Shown here piece after piece: positions 2 through 18,716 of a stretch of DNA of 43,492 nucleotides; the first letter of the stretch is position 1, and each line of letters starts with the position of its first letter. Made by a program: the position numbers and the translations under genes. Source of the DNA: Bacilli bacterium (GTDB taxonomy: Bacteria; Bacillota_I; Bacilli_A; Haloplasmatales; Haloplasmataceae). The DNA is taken from the NCBI GenBank assembly GCA_012516175.1, contig JAAYWZ010000072.1, positions 1 to 43,492 on the forward strand, written 5' to 3'. The notes below the pieces were generated by a model that was not told where the DNA came from, searched no databases, and was given only the letters and a program-made list of their open reading frames with translations.

Positions 2-1384
2 ATCTATCCCGAAAGATTCGCTAATGGTAATAAAGAAAACGACCCAAAAGATGTCCTTGAATGGGGAAGTGTGCAAAACGTTAAAAACAATATGTTCTTT
101 GGTGGTGATTTAGAAGGAGTAATCGAAAAACTTGATTATCTAGCTAATCTTGGTATTAATGGTATCTATTTCACCCCTATCTTCACATCACCAAGCAGTC
201 ATAAATATGACATAACGAATTATTTTGAAGTTGATCCGCAATTTGGGGATATAAATATTTTGAAAACACTTGTAAAAGAAGCGCATAAGCGTAGAATTAG
301 GGTTATGCTTGATGCAGTTTTCAACCATTGTAGTTTTTATCATCCGTTTTTTCAAGATGTCTTAAAAAATGGTGAAAACTCACAATATAAGGATTACTTT
401 CATATAAAGAGATTTCCTGTGTTTGAAGGCAATCCTAAAGATTTCCATTTTGATGATGAAAACAATGTGTTAAATTACGATACCTTTGCGTTTACACCAT
501 TTATGCCAAAATGGAACACAGTACATCCTAAGGTGAAAGAATATTTGCTTGATGTAGCGAAGTTTTGGATCAAAGAATGTGATATCGATGCTTGGCGTTT
601 AGATGTTTCAAATGAAGTAGATCATGCATTTTGGCGTGCCTTTAGAAAAGTTTGTGACGAAACGAAACCCGACTTCTTTATTGTTGGTGAAAATTGGGAT
701 GATGCCTACGCTTGGTTACAGCCAGACCAAATGCATTCAGTGATGAATTATGAGTTTATGTTTCCCGTCTGGAGTTTCTTTGGTCATAGATCAATAAAAG
801 CTACTGAATTTAAAAATCAAATTAATAAACTCTTATGCTTATATCCAAAAAATATTAGTGAGTATTTATTTAATCTCCTCGATAGTCATGATACAACCAG
901 AATTCTTAATATCTGCCAAGGCAAAAAACAATTAATGAAGTTAGCCTATGTCTTTCAAATGACTATTGGGGGAACACCAGTTGTTTATTACGGCGATGAA
1001 GTAGGCTTAGCAGGTGGACATGACCCAGATAACCGTAGATGCATGATTTGGGATGAAAAATTTCAGGACCTAGATATGTTTAAACATATTCAAAGGTTAA
1101 TAAGTTTAAGAAAAACATATCCACTAATGCGAGAACTTGATATAAAATGGGTAGATACAAATGATGCTACGAATCATTTAATCTATAAAAAACAAACAAA
1201 AGATGACACCCTTTATATTGTCATCAATAATCAAAATCAACATTTAAACCTTATGCATGAAGAGTTAGTTGGCGATTTCTACGATGTATATAACGATAAG
1301 ATTATTACTATTAAATCTAGTTATATCGTTAACCCATATGGATTTTTAATTTTAAAAAAATTAAATAATAAAAAAGATAAATAA
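2..1384 (+). CDS. Cyclomaltodextrinase/neopullulanase-type GH13 alpha-amylase (5' end outside window)
   Basis: Hydrolyses cyclodextrins, pullulan or maltodextrins in the cytoplasm. The frame is open from base 2 and begins IYPERFANG, a sequence typical of GH13_20 enzymes just before the barrel, so the N-terminal domain and start codon lie upstream; the GTG at 71 is internal. The four GH13 regions are intact: DAVFNH, WRLDVSNEVDH (nucleophile Asp), VGENWDD (acid Glu) and LLDSHDTTR (stabiliser Asp). A C-terminal beta domain follows. It is convergent with the glgP operon and shares an intergenic hairpin with it. Exact substrate preference cannot be read from the sequence; maltogenic amylase is an equivalent name. 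Confidence 0.9.
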   Translation: MYPERFANGNKENDPKDVLEWGSVQNVKNNMFFGGDLEGVIEKLDYLANLGINGIYFTPIFTSPSSHKYDITNYFEVDPQFGDINILKTLVKEAHKRRIRVMLDAVFNHCSFYHPFFQDVLKNGENSQYKDYFHIKRFPVFEGNPKDFHFDDENNVLNYDTFAFTPFMPKWNTVHPKVKEYLLDVAKFWIKECDIDAWRLDVSNEVDHAFWRAFRKVCDETKPDFFIVGENWDDAYAWLQPDQMHSVMNYEFMFPVWSFFGHRSIKATEFKNQINKLLCLYPKNISEYLFNLLDSHDTTRILNICQGKKQLMKLAYVFQMTIGGTPVVYYGDEVGLAGGHDPDNRRCMIWDEKFQDLDMFKHIQRLISLRKTYPLMRELDIKWVDTNDATNHLIYKKQTKDDTLYIVINNQNQHLNLMHEELVGDFYDVYNDKIITIKSSYIVNPYGFLILKKLNNKKDK

Positions 1385-1568: not shown

Positions 1569-3989
1569 TTATAAAGAGAGGTGTTCAAGTTTCCAAATTT
1601 CCCCAGCATATTGAGTGATTGTACGATCACTTGAGAAGAAGGATGAATTCGCAATATTTATTAAAGCCATTTCTAACCATTTATCTTGATTCTTATATAA
1701 CTGATTAGCGTATCTTTGAGCTTTGGCATAAGCTTCAAAGTCTTTTAATACAAAGAAGTAATCACCACGGTTTATCAAATTATCATAGATATCGATAAAC
1801 TCTTTTTGATCAACACTCGTAAAGAAACCGTTAATTAATTGATCAACAACTCTCTTTAAGATGGGGGTGTTTTCATAAACATCTCTTGGATTATAATCTT
1901 TATTCTTGTAATGAGCTGTTACTTCTTCAGCTGTCATCCCAAAGATAATCGCATTTTCAGGGCCAACTAAATTTACAATTTCGATGTTGGCACCATCTAA
2001 GGTTCCAAGTGTAATGGCTCCATTCATCATTAACTTCATATTTCCTGTTCCTGAGGCTTCTTTTGATGCCGTAGATATTTGCTCCGATATATTGGCGGCA
2101 TTCATGATTAACTCAGCATACGAAACATTATAGTTCTCTACAAATACCACTTTGATTTTCTTATTGACTTCTTCATCTTTGTTAACTTTTTCCGCAATCG
2201 TATTGATTAATTTAATTATCTTTTTTGCCATATAGTAACTACCAGCTGCTTTAGCTCCAAAGATAAAGGTTTGGGGATAAAATGAATCGTAGAATTCTTT
2301 ATCCTCTTTTAAAGTATTATATAAATGCATGATATGTAAGGCATTCATCAATTGCCGCTTATATTCATGAAGTCGTTTAACTTGGACATCAAAAATAGAA
2401 TTGACATCTATTTTAATGCCTTCTTTTTTCAAAATATAATCTGCAAGAATTTGCTTACGTGTTTGTTTAACTAAATAGAATTCCTTTTTCACCGTTTCAT
2501 CTTTAACATAATCATTTAATTTACTTAAACGATTAATGTCACTTTCCCAACCCTCACCGATGTATTTATTTAAGAATTCCATTAATTCGGGGTTAGTATG
2601 ATATAACCAGCGGCGATGAGAAATACCATTTGTTTTATTATTAAACTTATTTGGGAATAATTGATTAAAATCTTTCATTTCCACTTCTTTTAAGATTTTC
2701 GTATGTAATTCAGCCACACCATTTACACTAAATGAGCCTACGATACATAAATGTGCCATATGAATAAGGTTATTGCTTATTATCGCTAAAGAATTTACTC
2801 TTGGATCATCTTTACCATATTTATCAATAAGTACTTCTCTAAATCGAGCATCAATTTCCTGAATGATTTGATAAATTCTTGGTAACAATGGCGCAAAGTA
2901 ATGAACAGGCCATTTTTCTAAAGCTTCCGCTAATATCGTATGATTTGTATATGCACAAGTTTTTGATGTAATCTCCCAAGCCTTCTCAAAGGTATAATTT
3001 TCTTCATCCATTAAAATGCACATTAATTCAGGTATAAGTAATGTGGGATGGGTATCATTAATATGTAACGTTACTTTTTCAGCGAAATTTTCTAAAGTTC
3101 CATATGTCTTTTTATGTTCAATAATAATCCGTCTTAAACCAGCACAAACAAAGAAGTATTGTTGTTTTAATCGCAATATCTTACCTTCATCAGTAGAATC
3201 ATCAGGATATAACGACTCGGAGATTTTTCTTACACTTGCTTCATAAACATCTGCATCGATATTCTCGGGATACTTACCGTAAGGTTCTGCTTTCCAAAGC
3301 GTTAAGGTATTGGTTGCCTTTGTTTTATCACCAACGATTGGTATATCATATGGTATAGCTTTTACATATTGGGCATTAACTAATTTAATAACTTTTTTAC
3401 CATTAACAATTTCTTCTTGAACTTCACCATAGAATGGTACAATTACTGCTTCATCTTCTTTACAAATTTCCCATGCATAACCATGTTCGAGCCAATCTTC
3501 AGGCAACTCAACTTGATATCCATTGACAAATTTTTGGGTAAAAAAACCTTTTTGATAACGAACACTCACACCATGACCCGGATAAGAAAGCGATGCTAAT
3601 GAGTCTAAGAAACAAGCAGCAAGTCTTCCTAAACCACCATTTCCTAGTCCGGCATCTGTTTCAGCATCTTCAACATCATTAATATTAATCCCTAATTCGT
3701 CAAAAGCTTCTTTAACAACTTTATATATACCTAAATTCATCAGGTTATTCGTAAGTAATCTTCCCATTAAAAATTCCATTGAGAAATAATATACTTGTTT
3801 CAATTGTTTTTCCTTAATAGTCTTATGTGTTAACTCCCAATTAGTCATTATTAATTCTTTAACTAATGAGGCTAATGCCATGTATTGTTGATAGGGAGTA
3901 GAGTCTTTTAAATCGACTTGATAATCGTTGGCTAGTTTTGCGGTAAATGCGGAAATAAAGGCATCTTTATCTTGAAATATTTGAAGCAT
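1569..3989 (-). CDS. glgP: Glycogen/maltodextrin phosphorylase
   Basis: Releases glucose-1-phosphate from the non-reducing ends of alpha-1,4-glucans with pyridoxal phosphate as cofactor, in the cytoplasm. At 806 residues it has the usual length of bacterial GT35 phosphorylases. Landmarks are the N-terminal YYFSMEFLMGR block, the substrate/PLP pocket GNGGLGRLAACFLDS, HINDTHP, and the PLP site EASGTGNMK with the Schiff-base lysine at about residue 652 followed by GTLDGANIEI. The start ATG is preceded by a purine-rich GAGAGGAAGTGG. It is the last gene of a three-gene operon with two GH13 hydrolases, 26 bases behind the preceding gene, which fits phosphorolysis of stored or imported maltodextrin. 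Confidence 0.96.
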   Translation of the reverse strand: MLQIFQDKDAFISAFTAKLANDYQVDLKDSTPYQQYMALASLVKELIMTNWELTHKTIKEKQLKQVYYFSMEFLMGRLLTNNLMNLGIYKVVKEAFDELGININDVEDAETDAGLGNGGLGRLAACFLDSLASLSYPGHGVSVRYQKGFFTQKFVNGYQVELPEDWLEHGYAWEICKEDEAVIVPFYGEVQEEIVNGKKVIKLVNAQYVKAIPYDIPIVGDKTKATNTLTLWKAEPYGKYPENIDADVYEASVRKISESLYPDDSTDEGKILRLKQQYFFVCAGLRRIIIEHKKTYGTLENFAEKVTLHINDTHPTLLIPELMCILMDEENYTFEKAWEITSKTCAYTNHTILAEALEKWPVHYFAPLLPRIYQIIQEIDARFREVLIDKYGKDDPRVNSLAIISNNLIHMAHLCIVGSFSVNGVAELHTKILKEVEMKDFNQLFPNKFNNKTNGISHRRWLYHTNPELMEFLNKYIGEGWESDINRLSKLNDYVKDETVKKEFYLVKQTRKQILADYILKKEGIKIDVNSIFDVQVKRLHEYKRQLMNALHIMHLYNTLKEDKEFYDSFYPQTFIFGAKAAGSYYMAKKIIKLINTIAEKVNKDEEVNKKIKVVFVENYNVSYAELIMNAANISEQISTASKEASGTGNMKLMMNGAITLGTLDGANIEIVNLVGPENAIIFGMTAEEVTAHYKNKDYNPRDVYENTPILKRVVDQLINGFFTSVDQKEFIDIYDNLINRGDYFFVLKDFEAYAKAQRYANQLYKNQDKWLEMALINIANSSFFSSDRTITQYAGEIWKLEHLSL

Positions 3990-4015
3990 ATTCTTTCCAC
4001 TTCCTCTCTAAATTA

Positions 4016-6097
4016 TTAATATAACTTAAAGATTTTAATCTCACCAGGTTGTAAATTTACGACAAGATTCTGATTATCATTAACTTGATAGCCATCTATA
4101 TCATCATAACTTGAATATATTAAAGAAAGGTTTTCTTTTATGTATTCATTAATTAAAGCAAGTTTTTGCTTTTTTTCAAAAGGATTTATATTCACAAACA
4201 CTAATAGATAGTAATTATCACCTTTAAGAGCATAACTAATACTATCTTTTTTATTTGGTTCAACATTTATCGGAATAAAGTTATTAGGATCAGTAATTGT
4301 ATCTAAGTATTCTTTACGAATACTTGCGACTTTTTCAAGATTATCAGGAATATCCCAACGCTTTTCATGTAAATAGTGGAAAGCGTAACGATCAAATAAC
4401 GCCAGTTTGCCATAGTATGGATCATCTGGATCTAACATATCTAAATCATTACCACTAACATCAAGTCCAGTATTCATGGGTTGTGGTTCATAAACTTCTT
4501 GACCAGAATTGATAAATGGCACACCATTAGGGACAAACATATTTAAAATGGTAAGCATTTTGGCTAGCACTTCTCTACCTTCCCGCGCAGCCAATCTTGG
4601 TGTATCATGGGTCTCACCACACGCAAAAACAGGGCATTCTAATTTAGGAACTTGATAAATAAAATCATATAAGTGCTCTTTATAGCGTGGTTCATGCCAG
4701 AAACCATCACCAATAATCATGTTGTAGCCAAGATTTTTCGCCTTTTCCGCATTAGCAGTTGAAAGTTCTTCCGCAATAAAACAGAAATTTGGATCAATTT
4801 CCCTTGCTTTCCTAATAATCATATCTAGCAAATCACTTGAAAGAGCATGACCCATATCAATCCTTGCACCATCAATTCCAAAGCGTTTTTGATAATATGG
4901 AATAATATCAGATAATGTATTCCATAACTCTATATTTGGTTTTTCCCCTTGATATAAGTTACATTTGATAGTATCAAAAAGAATATAAGGTGGTACATCT
5001 TCACCAGGTTTTAAATATTTCTTTAATTCATGTTGTGTTAAAACAGGATGGTCTAAATACATTCTAAAGAAAGTAACATCGGACCAAGGTGGTTGGGGGT
5101 CATTAATTTGATCAGAAAAGGCTGGCGCAATCTGAATATTATACTCTTTTTTGATTAAGTCTGAAAAACTTCCTTGAGGATTTTTCTTATATTCTAAAAC
5201 TAATTCTTCATATTTTTTAGCGTCTAAAGTTTTGGGGTCATAAGAGAAACGTCTTATATGGTCCCTAACAGATTTTGATTTATATACTTCATGTAAAACT
5301 TCAGGATTCGGTGGTGTGAGTTTTCCTAAACTAGGTACTGTAGGTGGGTAATAGTTTGGAAATTCATCACACTTAATCCAATAAAACCAATCGGGATGGT
5401 CAATTATAAAATCATTTTCAATCGCATTTGTTCGGGGTATGATGTCAATCATCACTTTCATTCCAAGAATATGACATGCTTCCACAAAAGCTTGAAATTC
5501 ATCTTCGACAGTTAAGTCATCTTTCGTAATTGGATCTTTTAAGTTAGGATCGATCTCATAGAAATTAGATACACTATAAGGTGACCCTAACTCCCCTTTT
5601 TTATCTTTTAAAGAGTATTTCGATATCGGCAACATATAAACGACATCGATACCCATTTTTTTAAATAATGGTAATAGTGCTAGCGTCTTTACAAATGTAC
5701 CTGTATCTTTTAAACCATATGTGTTTATATCATCTAAAGTACCATTGCCATCATGATCCCAGGCTGTCGAGGTACGAATCATCATCGAATAAACAACGCT
5801 CTTTTTTATCCATTCGCCACCACTAATATTAGTTTCAATTATTTGATGGATCGGTTTACTATAATCAACATTCTCGTTGCGTTGAGGTAAGATATAAGAA
5901 CGGATGACTTCATAATAAAAATTATATGGATTAACAATTAATTCTCCTGAACTAGTTTTAATCATTTCTTCGCCTTGATAATTCCAAGCGTTCCATAAAT
6001 CAGGTACAGTATAGTTATAAGGCTTATGGTTATTATATTTCTTTAAAACATTCATTAACTGTACTAATTTGCTTGTTTTTTCTAGCCCTTCAGCCAT
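4016..6097 (-). CDS. Divergent GH13 (alpha-amylase superfamily) glycosidase, cytoplasmic
   Basis: A 693-residue protein without signal peptide. A (beta/alpha)8 barrel of GH13 type is shown by GARIDMGH (nucleophile Asp at about 414), FIAEELSTA (acid Glu) and CGETHDTPRLA (stabiliser Asp), so the catalytic triad is present. Region I is unusual: IDIIPRTNA in place of the DxxxNH seen in most amylases, followed by HPDWFYWI, an arrangement reminiscent of GlgE-like or glucanotransferase-like members. A putative calcium-type loop DHDGNGTLDD lies near residue 115. The C-terminal beta domain ends at the stop. It sits between alpha-glucosidase and glgP in one operon with a strong AAGGGGAG ribosome site, so an alpha-glucan substrate is likely; the exact reaction is not known. 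Confidence 0.8.
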   Translation of the reverse strand: MAEGLEKTSKLVQLMNVLKKYNNHKPYNYTVPDLWNAWNYQGEEMIKTSSGELIVNPYNFYYEVIRSYILPQRNENVDYSKPIHQIIETNISGGEWIKKSVVYSMMIRTSTAWDHDGNGTLDDINTYGLKDTGTFVKTLALLPLFKKMGIDVVYMLPISKYSLKDKKGELGSPYSVSNFYEIDPNLKDPITKDDLTVEDEFQAFVEACHILGMKVMIDIIPRTNAIENDFIIDHPDWFYWIKCDEFPNYYPPTVPSLGKLTPPNPEVLHEVYKSKSVRDHIRRFSYDPKTLDAKKYEELVLEYKKNPQGSFSDLIKKEYNIQIAPAFSDQINDPQPPWSDVTFFRMYLDHPVLTQHELKKYLKPGEDVPPYILFDTIKCNLYQGEKPNIELWNTLSDIIPYYQKRFGIDGARIDMGHALSSDLLDMIIRKAREIDPNFCFIAEELSTANAEKAKNLGYNMIIGDGFWHEPRYKEHLYDFIYQVPKLECPVFACGETHDTPRLAAREGREVLAKMLTILNMFVPNGVPFINSGQEVYEPQPMNTGLDVSGNDLDMLDPDDPYYGKLALFDRYAFHYLHEKRWDIPDNLEKVASIRKEYLDTITDPNNFIPINVEPNKKDSISYALKGDNYYLLVFVNINPFEKKQKLALINEYIKENLSLIYSSYDDIDGYQVNDNQNLVVNLQPGEIKIFKLY

Positions 6098-6125
6098 AAT
6101 TTTTACTCCCCTTCATCCAAAACTA

Positions 6126-7835
6126 TTAATTATCGATTTTTTTTCGATATACTAATGCTTCATATGGTCTTAAAATCAACTCTCTCCTTATTTCTTGACC
6201 TTCATAATTACTTATAATTAAATCAAAGTTATCTATGTTTATTTCTTCAGGTATATTCACTTCAACAATATTTTCGAAGAAGTTACATAATACAATATAT
6301 ATTTCATCATCTAATTCTCGTGTATATATAACGATATTTTCATCATCTTCTAAGAAAAGGTTAAATTTACCGTATATTAATGTCTTGCTGTTTTGTCTAA
6401 TTTTTAATAATTTTTGATAATAATGATAAATTGAATCTTCATCTTGAAGATTATCTTTAACATTTATATATACATAATTTGGATTTACACTAATCCATGG
6501 TTGTACTTTTGAGAATCCTGCATAAGGTGAATCATCCCATTGCATGGGTGTTCGCGCATTATCACGACTGCGTTTATGTATGCGGTCCATAATTTCTTCA
6601 TGACTGGCAATTCCCTTACCAACTGTTTCACGATAAAGAGTAAAAATCTCAACATCTCGATAATCTAATAATGATTCAAAGGCTACATTAGTCATACCAA
6701 TTTCTTCACCTTGATATATGATGGGTGTCCCACCCATCATATAAAGCGTTGTTGCCAACATTTTCGCACTCAAATTATGATACTTAGGTGAATCATTTCC
6801 ATAATGGCTTACTACCCGCGGTTGGTCGTGATTAGACCAATAAAGAGTATTCCAAGCTTTTCCATACATGTTTACTTGATACTTTTTAAAGGACTTCTTC
6901 AATAATGGTAATTCCAGTTTTTTATATGACCATTTACCAGGAACATGGGGTGATCCTTCTGAATCTTCATCAACCCAGCAGTGATCAAAAGTTATCAACA
7001 TGTCAAACTCATTTCGATCATATGCGCAATATTTTAACGCATCTTCGATGGTTGCTCCTCCTGCTTCACCGATTGTGACTATATCATAGCCCGCAAGAGC
7101 TTTTTGGCGCATTTCCCTAATATATTCATGAACTTTTGGACGATTACTAAATTCAAAATAACATCCCGAATATTGCCGTCCAGGCAAGGTAGGATGATTA
7201 GGAAACCCCATATTTTTATCTAAATGAGCTACAGCATCAACTCGAAAACCATCAACGCCTTGATTTAGCCACCATCTAATCATTTCATAAATATCATTAC
7301 GCATATTTTCATTAGTCCAATTTAAATCAGGCATTTTCTTCGAGAAAATGTGCATATAGTAAGAATCAGTTGTCGCATCATATTCCCATACGGAACCACC
7401 AAAAAATGATTCCCAGTTGCTTGGTAATGAACCATCTGGCCGAGCTTTTCGCCAAATATAATAATCTCGATAAGGATTATTTTCACTAGACCGAGATTCG
7501 ATAAACCATGGATGTTCATCACTAGTATGATTGAGAACTAAATCGATAATTAAGCGCATGCCACGTGCATGTAATTCCTCAATGAGTTGTTTGATATCAT
7601 CTAAAGTACCGTACTCAGGAGCGACATTATAGAAATCACTGACGTCATATCCATTATCATCCATTGGTGATTCATAAAATGGGCATATCCAAATCGCAGT
7701 GACTCCCAAATCTTTTAAATAGTCTAATTTCTTGATTATCCCTTGAAGATCACCAATTCCATCATTATTTGAATCATAAAAACTTCGAGGGTAGATTTGA
7801 TATATTACGGCTTCTTTCCACCATGCATTTCTCAT
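6126..7835 (-). CDS. malL: Alpha-glucosidase, oligo-1,6-glucosidase family (GH13_31), probable exo-alpha-1,4 specificity
   Basis: Cuts terminal glucose from malto-oligosaccharides. Opens with the family signature WWKEAVIYQIYPRSF and has IIDLVLNHTSDEHPWF (region I), GFRVDAV (nucleophile Asp200), TIGEAG (acid Glu) and YWSNHDQPR (stabiliser Asp). Length 569 matches Bacillus MalL and trehalose-6-phosphate hydrolases (550-570). The residue after the nucleophile is Ala201. In this subfamily Val at that place goes with alpha-1,6 cleavage, and Ala or Thr with alpha-1,4 cleavage (established from isomaltase/maltase comparisons), so an alpha-1,4 preference is inferred. First gene of the operon, preceded by AGGAGAGG, a sigma-A promoter and a palindromic operator. 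Trehalose-6-phosphate hydrolase is the main alternative but less likely. Confidence 0.92.
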   Translation of the reverse strand: MRNAWWKEAVIYQIYPRSFYDSNNDGIGDLQGIIKKLDYLKDLGVTAIWICPFYESPMDDNGYDVSDFYNVAPEYGTLDDIKQLIEELHARGMRLIIDLVLNHTSDEHPWFIESRSSENNPYRDYYIWRKARPDGSLPSNWESFFGGSVWEYDATTDSYYMHIFSKKMPDLNWTNENMRNDIYEMIRWWLNQGVDGFRVDAVAHLDKNMGFPNHPTLPGRQYSGCYFEFSNRPKVHEYIREMRQKALAGYDIVTIGEAGGATIEDALKYCAYDRNEFDMLITFDHCWVDEDSEGSPHVPGKWSYKKLELPLLKKSFKKYQVNMYGKAWNTLYWSNHDQPRVVSHYGNDSPKYHNLSAKMLATTLYMMGGTPIIYQGEEIGMTNVAFESLLDYRDVEIFTLYRETVGKGIASHEEIMDRIHKRSRDNARTPMQWDDSPYAGFSKVQPWISVNPNYVYINVKDNLQDEDSIYHYYQKLLKIRQNSKTLIYGKFNLFLEDDENIVIYTRELDDEIYIVLCNFFENIVEVNIPEEINIDNFDLIISNYEGQEIRRELILRPYEALVYRKKIDN

Positions 7836-7897: not shown

Positions 7898-7911
7898 AAA
7901 CTAATTTGTGT

Positions 7912-7923
7912 GTAATCGATTAC
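7912..7923. promoter_or_regulatory. Perfect palindrome GTAATCGATTAC, likely LacI/MalR-family operator
   Basis: A 12-base perfect palindrome with the central CG typical of LacI-family operators (cre and MalR boxes), 14 bases upstream of the -35 box of the maltodextrin operon. That position would suit activation or repression by a sugar regulator. No regulator gene of this family lies in the window. Confidence 0.5.
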
Positions 7924-8103
7924 CGCTTTTCATCTCATAATTCATATCCTTATATGAAATTCTGTATGACAAATTTGAAGTAAGAGATAATATACAAAAA
8001 AATATCGCTTACTCGATAATACGATATCTTTTAAATCTTAGTAATATGTCGAAAATATCGACTATTTTGATAATATTCCCCAATAATTATTAGTTGCATT
8101 ATC
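7924..8103. other. Non-coding spacer, AT-rich, with a small inverted repeat
   Basis: Together with the flanking promoter and terminator this makes a 307-base gene-free stretch. No credible reading frame or RNA gene was seen. The only structure is GTCGA-AAATA-TCGAC at 8048-8062 and a loose ATATCG...CGATAT pair around 8010-8035; either could be a regulator site, but neither is convincing. Confidence 0.4.
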
Positions 8104-8142: not shown

Positions 8143-10212
8143 TTATTTTCTTCTTTTTCTACCTTTTAATAGTAAGTATATGCCCAGTGCACCTAATGCA
8201 TATTTCGCATACTTGCGATAATCAGGTTTTTCCTTTTCAATAACAGTAATTTCGCCAACCGTCTTTTCATTAGAATATAGGACCATAGTGGATAATTCTG
8301 GCACTATAACTTCATTACCAGAAAATTTCTTTAAGACTTCCGTTCCAGCTTTTTCCTCATCGACAATAATATTCCAGATACCAAAGTGGGGTAATCTGAA
8401 TTTCACTTCACTGGAGTTCGCATTAAAGATGACAACGATATCAGCGTAACTATCACCATTCGCGTTATCAGTAATATTATAGGCAATAGTATTAGTAACT
8501 GGAGAACTAATAAACTTCAAATGATTTCTAATCATTTCTGCTTTAGTCATTCGAAATGCAGGATGTTTTTTCCTTAACTCGATTAAACCACGATAATATT
8601 CAAATAGCTCAAAATGGTCATATTTACTATTCCAAACAATCTGATTGATAAAGTCTGGTGATTGGAAAGAATTATCATCACCATTCTTCGTCCTTAACAT
8701 TTCTTCACCCGCCATGAAGAAAGGGATACCTTGGCTTAATAAAACAATCGCATTAGCCATTTTCGCCATTTTAATGCGGGTATTCATGTCTAAATCTTCA
8801 GTAGTTTCAGCAATTTTATCAAATAAACACAAGTTTTCATGATAAGATGCATAATTAACTACTTGGTTAGGTTGACTAGCCCAAGGTTCTTTAGAGTAGA
8901 TAACTTTTTCATAATTTACCTCAGGATGTTCTATACCACCCACCACCGTAGATTTAATTGATTCTTCAAAGCCAATACCACCATTGACAAAGCCTGGTTC
9001 TTTAGCGTATTGCGGATCACCCTTAATCCCATCACGACCATCATCATTGAAGGCAGCAACTCTAGGTAAGCGTTTAATATTCTCTCTAATAGCTTGTTTC
9101 ATTCTTGGTAAGATACTCTCACCTTTAGTGATGCCATGCCCAAAAATCATAATGGTGGGGTCAATCTTATCAAGTTCACTCCTAATAAGATTCATCGTTT
9201 CAATATCGATTAAGCCCATTTGGTCAAAACAGAAACCATCAATATGGTATTCTTTTGCATAAAACTTAACGCAATCAACAAGATATTTTCTAACCATAGG
9301 GCGTTCTGTCGCTAGTTCATTCCCAAAACCTGAACCATTCGCGAAGTTACCATCTTCAATCATGCGATAAAAGTAACCAGGAAAGGTTTTATATAGGGAT
9401 GATTCTTTAGTAAAATAAGTGTGACTGAAGACCATATCCATAATAACACGGATCTTGCTTTGGTGAAGAGCTTTGACTAACTCTTTAAATTCCCTAATCC
9501 TAGTTACTCCATCGATGGGATTAGTTGAATAAGAGCCTTCAACACAAAAATAATTGGTAGGATTATAGCCCCAATTATAATCAGGAGTATCTTTTGTTTC
9601 ATCTATGGCACCAAAATCAGTCACTGGTAATAAAAGAACATGTGTTATACCTAATTCAATTAGATGATCTAACCCTGTAGTAAGTCCTTCGGGACTACGT
9701 GTGCCATGTTGCACTAAACCTAAGAACTTACCAGGGTGTAATACATTTGCGGTCTTATGAATTGTTAAATCGCGAATATGCGCTTCATATATTATCGCAT
9801 CAGTTGTATTAATTAAAGTTGGTCTTTCATCTTCTAAGAAACCTTCGGGATTAGTTCTACTTAAATCAACCACCATTCCCCGTTCGCCATTAACACCACA
9901 AGCTTTCGCATAGATATCAATAGTTTCAAACTTACCTTGCGGTGATTCAATCTCATAAGTATAAAAAACCCCATGTAAATCATCTTTTACTTCGACAAAC
10001 CAAGTACCATTAACGTCTTTTTCCATCTTTATTTTGTCATAGGGTTTACTCTTATATCCTTTATCATATAAAAACAACGTTACTTTCGTTGCGATTGGGC
10101 TCCAAACCCGAAAAGTAGTTTTTTCTTTCGTATAGATAGCGCCTAAATCATCACCATCATAGTAATATTGGTCATTAAATTCATCGGTATCAAAGATCCG
10201 TGGATTAATCAT
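8143..10212 (-). CDS. Pullulanase-family (CBM48 + GH13_14) protein with degenerate active site and hydrophobic C-terminal tail
   Basis: Homologous to type I pullulanases, which debranch alpha-1,6 links. An N-terminal carbohydrate-binding CBM48 domain (residues about 20-120) is followed by the pullulanase hallmark YNWGYNPTNYF. The catalytic regions are altered: region II reads GFCFDQMG (the near-invariant Arg is Cys328; nucleophile Asp330 kept), region III reads FGHGIT (acid Glu replaced by His359), region IV reads YHEN (stabiliser Asp replaced by Glu459) and region I reads DMVFSH (Asn to Ser). There is no signal peptide. The last 25 residues hold YALGALGIYLLL then KGRKRRK, a short membrane-seeking tail. 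The frame is intact and it has its own promoter and terminator, so it is expressed, probably as a non-catalytic or altered protein. Confidence 0.85.
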   Translation of the reverse strand: MINPRIFDTDEFNDQYYYDGDDLGAIYTKEKTTFRVWSPIATKVTLFLYDKGYKSKPYDKIKMEKDVNGTWFVEVKDDLHGVFYTYEIESPQGKFETIDIYAKACGVNGERGMVVDLSRTNPEGFLEDERPTLINTTDAIIYEAHIRDLTIHKTANVLHPGKFLGLVQHGTRSPEGLTTGLDHLIELGITHVLLLPVTDFGAIDETKDTPDYNWGYNPTNYFCVEGSYSTNPIDGVTRIREFKELVKALHQSKIRVIMDMVFSHTYFTKESSLYKTFPGYFYRMIEDGNFANGSGFGNELATERPMVRKYLVDCVKFYAKEYHIDGFCFDQMGLIDIETMNLIRSELDKIDPTIMIFGHGITKGESILPRMKQAIRENIKRLPRVAAFNDDGRDGIKGDPQYAKEPGFVNGGIGFEESIKSTVVGGIEHPEVNYEKVIYSKEPWASQPNQVVNYASYHENLCLFDKIAETTEDLDMNTRIKMAKMANAIVLLSQGIPFFMAGEEMLRTKNGDDNSFQSPDFINQIVWNSKYDHFELFEYYRGLIELRKKHPAFRMTKAEMIRNHLKFISSPVTNTIAYNITDNANGDSYADIVVIFNANSSEVKFRLPHFGIWNIIVDEEKAGTEVLKKFSGNEVIVPELSTMVLYSNEKTVGEITVIEKEKPDYRKYAKYALGALGIYLLLKGRKRRK

Positions 10213-10243: not shown

Positions 10244-10272
10244 ATATTACACAAAATCACCTTTTTTTTCAA
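10244..10272 (-). promoter_or_regulatory. Sigma-A promoter of the pullulanase-like gene
   Basis: Minus strand TTGAAA (10267-10272), 17-base spacer, TAATAT (10244-10249), 31 bases before the start codon, which has a TAGGTG ribosome site. Confidence 0.6.
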
Positions 10273-10309: not shown

Positions 10310-10759
10310 TTATAAGTCACGTTTCATCAAATAGGCATCTTCACCATTTTCATAATAGCGTCTTCTTACGCCGACAATTTCAAATAGATGCTTTTTGTAG
10401 AAATTTAAAGCTTTAATATTACTTACTCGTACTTCTAATGTTATATTACGACATCCTAATTCCTTTACATAGTTTATTAAAAATTCCATCATTTTATCGC
10501 CATAACCACGTCCCTGATAATTAGGATGGACAGCTATTGTGGTTATTTGCACATCCTCAAAGATAATCCAGATGCCAAAATAGCCAATAATTGTATTATC
10601 GAGTATCAACTTATAATACTCACTATAAGGGTGATGTTGAAAGTCATATATGAATAAATCAATTGGATACGGATAAAGAAAAGCCCTATTCTCAATTTCC
10701 ATTATCGCATTGAAATCATTCACATCTTCAACTCTATGAATTGAAACATTATCACTCAT
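10310..10759 (-). CDS. rimI: Ribosomal protein S18 alanine N-acetyltransferase RimI
   Basis: GNAT-fold acetyltransferase of 149 residues that modifies the N-terminal Ala of protein S18, or acts as a related protein N-acetyltransferase. The acetyl-CoA loop is visible as VHPNYQGRGYGDKMM, preceded by the ITTIAV beta-4 strand and followed by ITLEVRVSNIKALNFYKK, the classic RimI block, then YYENGEDAYLMKR. The start ATG overlaps the tsaB stop (ATGA), so the two are translationally coupled. The tsaE-tsaB-rimI order is common in Bacillota and supports the name. Confidence 0.92.
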   Translation of the reverse strand: MSDNVSIHRVEDVNDFNAIMEIENRAFLYPYPIDLFIYDFQHHPYSEYYKLILDNTIIGYFGIWIIFEDVQITTIAVHPNYQGRGYGDKMMEFLINYVKELGCRNITLEVRVSNIKALNFYKKHLFEIVGVRRRYYENGEDAYLMKRDL

Positions 10760-11409
10760 TTTAAATTCAGTTCCGCCTCAGCTTTCCGCTTATAACTAGG
10801 GACAAAAGTATGAACATTATCTACTAACGTTAATGTCACATTAAACACACATTTAGGATTAAAATAATCTGATACCTTTAAGTAAGTAAATTGAGTGTCA
10901 GTTAAGTTTACCTCACCTAATCCCACAACTAAAACATCTTCTGATATATTCTGCTTTACATTTTCCAATAATTCAGAGAAACTATATAATTGGTCTGGAT
11001 AAATGGGGACTAACCTATTTTGCTTAACATGATATAAAGCTCCGAACACATTTCCACGACGAGCATCTATGATGGGCATAATATACATCCCTTTATCAAT
11101 AAAACTACTAGCCATGAGTTCTAGAGTAGATACTTTATATAAAGGGATGTTTAAAGCATAACTTAGGGTTTTCGCAACCGTTACCCCAATCCTTACACCA
11201 GTATAACTACCTGGTCCTTCAGTTACAATTAACCGATCTATTTCACTAATATCAAAGTGATTTCTCGCAAGTAAATTATCTAAATTAGGCATTAAGAGAG
11301 TTGAATGATCCCGCTTTATGATTTCATAATGATAATCAATGACTTTATCATCTTCTGTTAAAATAAGGATTAATGCTTCTGTCGATGTATCAATCAATAA
11401 ACTTTTCAC
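10756..11409 (-). CDS. tsaB: tRNA threonylcarbamoyladenosine biosynthesis protein TsaB
   Basis: Non-catalytic partner of TsaD in the complex that makes t6A37 on ANN-decoding tRNAs. The ASKHA fold is shown by LLIDTSTEALIL at the N-terminus and GPGSYTGVRIGVTVAKTL. I chose the GTG at 11409 (VKSLLIDTST) because TsaB proteins begin directly with this strand and because GAGGTG lies 8 bases upstream; a longer in-frame start at 11487 would add 26 residues lying wholly within tsaE. This gives 217 residues. It overlaps tsaE by 20 bases and rimI by 4. tsaD is not in the window. Confidence 0.93.
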   Translation of the reverse strand: MKSLLIDTSTEALILILTEDDKVIDYHYEIIKRDHSTLLMPNLDNLLARNHFDISEIDRLIVTEGPGSYTGVRIGVTVAKTLSYALNIPLYKVSTLELMASSFIDKGMYIMPIIDARRGNVFGALYHVKQNRLVPIYPDQLYSFSELLENVKQNISEDVLVVGLGEVNLTDTQFTYLKVSDYFNPKCVFNVTLTLVDNVHTFVPSYKRKAEAELNLK

Positions 11410-11857
11410 GTTTGAGCACCTCACAGATATTTTCATACTTTTCGCCTTGCGGATTGAATTGGAATATTCGTTTATTTCCTTCAGCATAAATGTAAATCTC
11501 TAATCTTTCCTTTGGTAATTGGCTCATAATCTTTTTTGCCCACTCAATAACGGTAACACCATCACCAAAGAAATATTCATCAAATCCTAAATCTTCATTT
11601 TCATTTTCAATGCGGTAAACATCCATATGATATAAAGGTAATTTCCCATCATACTCTTTAATAATGGTGAATGTAGGACTATTGATTACTGATTTTACTC
11701 CTAAAGCTTCACCTAACCCTTTCGTAAAAGTGGTTTTACCTGCGCCTAAATCACCTTCTAAACAGATTACAGCGGCGGGAAATAATAGTTTTCCTAAAGC
11801 ATGGGCTAGTTTATAGGTATCTTCTAAAGAATTTATTTCAACTTGATACTTCTTCAT
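11390..11857 (-). CDS. tsaE: tRNA threonylcarbamoyladenosine biosynthesis ATPase TsaE
   Basis: P-loop ATPase that drives turnover of the TsaB-TsaD complex in t6A synthesis. Walker A is LEGDLGAGKTTFTKGLGEALG, followed by the family block SPTFTIIKEY, YHMDVYRIE and VIEWAKKI. I chose the second ATG (11857) because AAAGG sits at proper spacing; the ATG at 11866 would start inside the ribosome site. 155 residues, normal for TsaE. First gene of the tsaE-tsaB-rimI operon, with a sigma-A promoter just upstream. Confidence 0.95.
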   Translation of the reverse strand: MKKYQVEINSLEDTYKLAHALGKLLFPAAVICLEGDLGAGKTTFTKGLGEALGVKSVINSPTFTIIKEYDGKLPLYHMDVYRIENENEDLGFDEYFFGDGVTVIEWAKKIMSQLPKERLEIYIYAEGNKRIFQFNPQGEKYENICEVLKREKFID

Positions 11858-11885
11858 AATAATCATCCTTTTCTAAACTTCTTAT

Positions 11886-18023: not shown

Positions 18024-18716
18024 TTACTCATCCGCCTGTTTATTATCACCGATTGGGGGAATAACAACGCCACTTCCTCCTACAAAATAATAATTAGGGA
18101 TACTTCCCTGAATTATTTTAATTAATAGGGGAGTATAAGTTGTTACGGTGATTTCCTCAGTTTGTAAGGGAATCGCTACTTGAAACTTAACAGTAGTCTT
18201 GATACTTACCTCGATTAAACTATTATTGATACCATAAGCTTTGGCAGTAGAGACAACATCAGTATGAACACTACCAATCATACGTAATTTAATATGTAAT
18301 TTGGGACCAAAATTGCTTAAGTAGGGATTATTAAAGATGACTCCAAGTGGTATGGTTAAATAATGGAGTTCATGGCTTTCATCATTTTGGATATTTAATA
18401 GATGAGTTTGCATCTCTTTAGCCATTTGGGAAATAAGTAAGTTCACTTGATGCACATCGACAATAACGCCACTAACGGTGCCATTACTCCGAGTTTGAAT
18501 CGTAATAATGTTATCAGTATTAATATTAGGAACGATTCTCGTACTGACAGCATCATTAATAACCACCGAGGCATAGAACTGCGCCTTCTCACTGGCATAC
18601 ACAATAATTGGAGAACGAAAATATGCTTTAATCAAAAATAAGACTAATATAATTAATAGAACAAATAAAAGACAAACTTTTTTTACTGTTAGTTTTTTTC
18701 GTCTTCGTCTATACAT
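18024..18716 (-). CDS. yunB: Sporulation protein YunB homologue
   Basis: Membrane-anchored protein of 230 residues. A basic start (RRRRKK) is followed by one transmembrane helix (VCLLFVLLIILVLFLI, residues about 14-29) and an extracytoplasmic domain. Family landmarks: VINDAVS, GVIVDVHQVNLLISQM, IPLGVIFNNPYLSNFGPKLHIKL and TYTPLLIKIIQGSIPNYYFVGG. In B. subtilis YunB is made in the mother cell under sigma-E control and is needed for normal sporulation. The order yunC-yunB matches that genome. Starts 1 base after the yunC stop, so one transcript. Confidence 0.87.
   Translation of the reverse strand: MYRRRRKKLTVKKVCLLFVLLIILVLFLIKAYFRSPIIVYASEKAQFYASVVINDAVSTRIVPNINTDNIITIQTRSNGTVSGVIVDVHQVNLLISQMAKEMQTHLLNIQNDESHELHYLTIPLGVIFNNPYLSNFGPKLHIKLRMIGSVHTDVVSTAKAYGINNSLIEVSIKTTVKFQVAIPLQTEEITVTTYTPLLIKIIQGSIPNYYFVGGSGVVIPPIGDNKQADE

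Follow-up and report, generated by a model that had tools for sequence, protein, structure and literature searches.

The window analysed here, a 43,492-nucleotide stretch from a Haloplasmataceae genome (Bacilli bacterium, assembly GCA_012516175.1, contig JAAYWZ010000072.1), carries a homologue of type I pullulanases, with a rimI-like gene, tsaB and tsaE on one side and a set of glucan genes on the other (Table 1). The encoded protein scored 750 bits against the type I pullulanase model, exceeding the equivalog cut-off of 504.5, and its closest solved structure was 6jeq (E 3e-174). The initial annotation had described an intact frame with retained CBM48 and fold motifs and no signal peptide, and all of this held: the frame is open over its whole length, the CBM48, the pullulanase all-beta domain and an unaltered YNWGYNP motif are present, and by inspection the pullulanase domain starts at the N-terminus. 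Structure prediction across five orthologues had a mean pLDDT of only 36.6.

Table 1. Features of the pseudo-pullulanase gene and its surroundings, with GlgB relics found elsewhere (coordinates refer to the window unless a locus is named)
Feature	Position	Strand	Details
Pseudo-pullulanase ORF, type I pullulanase/GH13_14 homologue	8143..10212	-	689 aa, TIGR02104
CBM48 domain, aa 23-102	9907..10146	-	PF02922
Family-specific motif YDKGYKSKPYDKIKM, aa 49-63	inside CBM48 domain, 9907..10146	-	
Conserved region I, aa 255-264	9421..9450	-	N263S, V260M
Conserved region II, aa 324-336	9205..9243	-	R328C, L331Q; nucleophile D330 kept
Conserved region III, aa 354-361	9130..9153	-	acid/base E359H, W361I, Y357F
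Conserved region IV, aa 452-460	8833..8859	-	stabiliser D459E; H458 kept
Pullulanase all-beta C-terminal domain, aa 561-621	8350..8532	-	
Hydrophobic and basic C-terminal tail, aa 668-689	8146..8211	-	Haloplasmataceae only
Intrinsic-terminator-like hairpin just past the stop codon	8109..8129	-	
Promoter-like site TTGAAA-17-TAATAT between rimI and the gene	10244..10272	-	consensus match only
rimI-like GNAT, tsaB, tsaE, conserved upstream neighbours	10310..11866	-	
GlgB relic loci	L069:2680-4428 (G000:C52); L070:2423-4159; L071:4145-5764	-	540-583 aa

Residues N263, R328, D330, E359, W361 and D459, invariant in all 31 other pullulanases, read S, C, D, H, I and E in the window protein, with L331Q and N222F in addition. 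Only the nucleophile D330, on which the initial annotation was silent, is kept from the Asp/Glu/Asp triad of GH13 enzymes, and both the motif II Arg and the motif III Trp (YGEGW) are replaced. Several near-invariant positions of the cleft or its vicinity are altered as well (N222F, Y357F, W361I, Y516F). The register was checked with point mutants of 6jeq, of which 6jhh differs at the Asp aligned to D330 and 6jhi at the Asp aligned to E459. This alignment, together with the 31 pullulanases, bore out Cys328, His359, Glu459 and the Asn to Ser change in region I as read by the initial annotation, whose motifs occupy the equivalent positions in 6jeq, although its count of three hallmark losses did not agree with the four it listed. 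As judged from these comparisons, the window protein belongs to the GH13_14 sequence family but does not have the catalytic features expected of the enzyme. An error in sequencing is a very unlikely cause, because an independent MAG of a sister species (G001, 91% identity) carries the same changes, and we rejected faulty assembly on the same ground. The window's remaining GH13 genes, taken as controls, retain their catalytic residues, so that the loss is specific.

Orthologues were present in all eight sampled Haloplasmataceae genomes, including a Haloplasma contractile MAG and the named isolate Inordinaticella fortuita 4B. Seven were full-length, 60–91% identical to the window protein and ended in the same C-terminal tail; the eighth, from G004, is cut off by a contig end near residue 313, and in it region I is kept while about ten residues around 288–298 are missing. 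Among these seven full-length orthologues, which come mostly from draft MAGs and are a small sample, the active site is intact in two (G006 and G007) and damaged in five, with a type of damage that depends on lineage (D330N, D330H, E359H, D459E or D459N). The window and G001 proteins share N263S, R328C, L331Q, E359H, W361I and D459E; G002 has R328C, D330N, W361F and D459N; G005 has lost the nucleophile (D330H) and carries D336E and W361S; and G003 has D459N and W361S. Across 70 positions near-invariant in the 31 other pullulanases, 11 were changed in each of the window and G001 proteins, seven in G002, four in G005, two in G003 and none in G006 or G007, while in a leave-one-out control the outgroup pullulanases had 0–8 changes, typically one or two and never at the triad. 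Sites altered in any member were concentrated in the four catalytic motifs (13/21 versus 4/49 elsewhere; Fisher p = 6e-6).

The orthologues formed a monophyletic clade (support 100/99) in which the intact G006 protein branches first and the intact G007 protein is nested with dead copies. Because the damage differs by lineage and G007 sits among dead copies, the tree implies, provided that loss is irreversible, that catalytic residues were lost independently at least three times: in G005, in the window's genus, and once or twice in G002 and G003. Four tsa-operon proteins, taken as a proxy for the species, gave a tree with partial resolution, which was left out of this count.

Between the window and G001, the pseudo-pullulanase had a dN of 0.045, a dS of 1.1 and the lowest omega (0.040) among ten genes compared, below tsaD (0.058), pgi (0.067) and phosphorylase (0.068); with dS near saturation these pairwise values are approximate, and their ranking carries more weight than the values themselves. 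Under a codon model, omega was 0.059 across the seven orthologues and 0.049 across the five dead copies, compared with 0.040 for tsaD, 0.070–0.089 for tsaE (0.070 alongside the dead copies) and 0.109 for tsaB. The dead copies are under strong purifying selection, with omega of 0.04–0.05, close to that of tsaD. The window protein combines lost catalytic residues with a remainder under purifying selection, which is how a pseudoenzyme is recognized.

Conservation along the protein is inverted relative to active enzymes, with the CBM48 and C-terminal domain exceeding the catalytic motifs. Among the orthologues, it was high at residues 31–60, within the CBM48, and 151–180 (both 0.89) and at 571–660 in the C-terminal domain (0.82–0.86), and low around motif I (241–300; 0.72–0.75) and after motif III (361–390; 0.67). 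Outgroup enzymes had the opposite pattern, with the C-terminal domain among their least conserved parts (0.18–0.33) and the catalytic motifs the most conserved, a comparison limited by the greater overall divergence of this active outgroup. The C-terminal domain and the residues onward to 650 are unusually conserved in Haloplasmataceae, and 59 residues invariant in the orthologue clade but rare in other pullulanases are densest in this domain and the CBM48. Taken together, the alignments and codon models show repeated loss of catalytic residues with purifying selection retained. The window protein is probably a cytoplasmic type I pullulanase homologue that has lost alpha-1,6 hydrolysis and is retained for some non-catalytic role. 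The pseudoenzyme already proposed by the initial annotation gains support from the repeated independent losses, the low omega and the inverted conservation. Debranching activity would be absent from the window and G001 proteins and from those of G002 and G005 at least, and the non-catalytic role would be located in the CBM48 and C-terminal domains.

The C-terminal end, YALGALGIYLLL-KGRKRRK, was found as the initial annotation gave it, and a search for the same tail in the window's own genome and 395 genomes of the class confined it to the pseudo-pullulanase ortholog group, the sole outside match being a partial C-terminal domain match to a G006 paralogue. Its 15-residue hydrophobic stretch had an unfavourable summed insertion score of +3.2, and 15-residue anchor stretches of secreted relatives had negative, favourable scores, both on a biological membrane-insertion scale. 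The tail appears too short and too polar for a normal membrane helix, which makes a spanning anchor unlikely and upholds the earlier remark on its shortness; it is less favourable to the membrane tethering proposed with it, and a peripheral membrane or partner contact is possible. These secreted pullulanases, which are anchored at the C-terminus and come from Haloplasmataceae and related Bacilli (L046, L047, L049, L016 and L017), have a plan similar to that of the window protein, with C-terminal domain, short linker, hydrophobic stretch and basic end. Unlike it, they carry a signal peptide (judged by inspection) and an intact active site, and their hydrophobic stretch has 19 or more residues, with an anchor core that scores as membrane-inserting. 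Phylogenetically they form the sister group, so the tail may derive from an anchor of this type that was shortened, in a protein that lost its signal peptide.

The gene sits between rimI and tsaD in G002, G003, G005, G006 and G007, and in four of these the tsaD frame overlaps it or starts within about 15 bases. In the window's genome (G000) and G001, tsaD lies on another contig (G000:C97 and G001:C311), apart from tsaE-tsaB-rimI; G001:C311 also has GH13 genes. A YunB sporulation-protein homologue is encoded at 18024-18716(-) of the window, and G004 too has a related gene close to its tsa operon. Only in the window and G001 is the gene followed by a glucan operon (alpha-glucosidase, a maltosyltransferase related to 1gju, and phosphorylase), which lies 307 bases away beyond the terminator-like hairpin. 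The position next to a functional alpha-glucan operon noted by the initial annotation stands as far as adjacency and intact catalytic residues are concerned, but the hairpin and the restriction to this genus speak against a single unit, and membership of the gene in the operon was rejected on the hairpin and synteny. Promoter-like sites such as that upstream of the gene are not rare by chance here (22 found versus 14.5 expected).

Within the operon, the protein encoded at 4016-6097(-) is related to the Thermotoga maltosyltransferase (1gju, E 2e-143) and has intact catalytic residues. The operon genes (window 1569-7835) had a dS of 0.34–0.42 between G000 and G001, compared with 1.0–1.5 for their neighbours, which reflects either strong codon bias or recent exchange. 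Upstream of the operon lies a palindrome around GTAATCGATTAC (7906-7925(-)), resembling a LacI-family (MalR-like) operator.

In the window's genome, neither a glycogen synthase GlgA above cut-off nor a second pullulanase was found, and the branching enzyme GlgB was present in degenerate form only. Relics of GlgB occurred in three genomes (G000, G001 and G004), in none of which GlgA scored above cut-off. Their nucleophile Asp is replaced by Asn (RLNN/KLNN), motif IV HD reads HT in G000 and G001, and the interval between motifs I and II is shortened, with an open frame and an omega of 0.106 (G000/G001). The relic follows MGDG-synthase-like and RecX-like genes, the position of intact GlgB in G002. 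Given the lack of a GlgA above cut-off and of a second pullulanase and the genus-limited adjacency to the glucan operon, synteny does not tie the window protein to glycogen.

These results bear on the tether put forward by the initial annotation, in which the dead barrel and CBM48 would bind glycogen or maltodextrin while the tail keeps the protein on the inner membrane to serve the phosphorylase and maltosyltransferase encoded nearby. The CBM48 is retained and among the best conserved parts, YNWGYNP is intact and the adjacent glucan enzymes have intact catalytic residues, but without a GlgA above cut-off, with GlgB degenerate, with the operon beyond a hairpin and adjacent in one genus only, with residues of the cleft region lost and with a tail unfavourable as a membrane helix, we consider this tether unlikely; binding of maltodextrin by the CBM48 would still be possible. 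A role in the t6A/housekeeping operon tsaE-tsaB-rimI-tsaD rather than in glucan metabolism, for instance as a partner of TsaD or RimI, would fit the placement between rimI and tsaD in five genomes irrespective of their glycogen genes. We regard it as improbable, as the protein is still conserved in the window's genus, where tsaD has been relocated, and the gene there has promoter-like and terminator-like sites of its own; to our knowledge, GH13 folds have no link to t6A.

It is quite improbable that the protein has stayed an enzyme in which His359 or some other residue serves as the acid, or one with a novel substrate or a transferase activity. The window protein does keep D330 and has ionisable residues in E459 and H359, so that residual or altered activity is possible for it, as it is for G003, which has only D459N and W361S. 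Other lineages, however, lose the nucleophile (D330N, D330H) while E359 stays, and no one new chemistry would suit all of them, yet the same remainder is conserved in every one. A slowly decaying relic, in which catalysis was lost recently and the frame is not yet broken, would be expected to have lineage-specific losses under relaxed constraint on the active site, as are observed, but it is already disfavoured and very improbable given the low omega of the dead copies over several genera, open frames in 7/7 full-length orthologues, and a C-terminal domain far better conserved than in the active, overall more divergent outgroup.

For a pseudoenzyme retained for a non-catalytic job in binding, scaffolding or regulation, we propose that the ancestor was bifunctional, combining active debranching with binding via the CBM48 face and the C-terminal domain. 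Debranching could have become dispensable through the presence of other pullulanases or once the glycogen pathway was lost, so that the binding role alone was kept. The resulting scaffold or sensor might bind a protein partner, a malto-oligosaccharide or both, which is the weakest step of this scheme, and the tail, being short, basic and hydrophobic, would provide an auxiliary contact with a partner or the membrane periphery rather than as a spanning anchor. More tentatively, GH13 alpha-1,6 enzymes, namely the pullulanase and, in three genomes, GlgB, may have been converted in parallel to selected non-catalytic proteins in Haloplasmataceae, which would reveal a non-enzymatic CBM48-GH13 function independent of glycogen synthesis.

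The window protein resembles type I pullulanases of GH13_14 (TIGR02104; 6jeq, 2wan and AmyX 2e8y) in its CBM48, GH13 barrel and all-beta C-terminal domain and in YNWGYNP, and differs from them in the replaced acid/base, stabiliser, motif II Arg and motif III Trp, in its family-specific C-terminal tail and in constraint that has moved off the active site. Annotation as a TIGR02104 type I pullulanase can accordingly mislead about activity. We found no paper on a pullulanase pseudoenzyme in the literature searched. Close relatives, the isolate Inordinaticella fortuita 4B among them, carry one orthologue in intact and in independently inactivated forms, a natural mutational series that would allow non-catalytic function to be separated from catalysis.

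Non-catalytic uses of the GH13 fold have been described elsewhere. The heavy chains 4F2hc and rBAT are animal membrane glycoproteins in which this fold serves as a non-catalytic structural subunit paired with amino-acid transporters, and the catalytic residues of rBAT are less conserved than the remainder (PMC8537225), but they belong to another, alpha-glucosidase-like branch of GH13. The closest functional analogue, on our best reading, would be the plant isoamylase ISA2, a GH13 debranching homologue without catalytic residues that was already dead in the green lineage's common ancestor, forms a pair with ISA1 and is selectively kept for reasons described as not understood (PMC12510319). As no second pullulanase was found in the window's genome, an ISA1-like partner of that kind is lacking there. 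Both ISA2 and the window protein are GH13 debranching-enzyme homologues that lost catalytic residues and are kept by selection; ISA2 belongs to another GH13 branch, whereas the losses in Haloplasmataceae are repeated and lineage-specific, with some orthologues intact.
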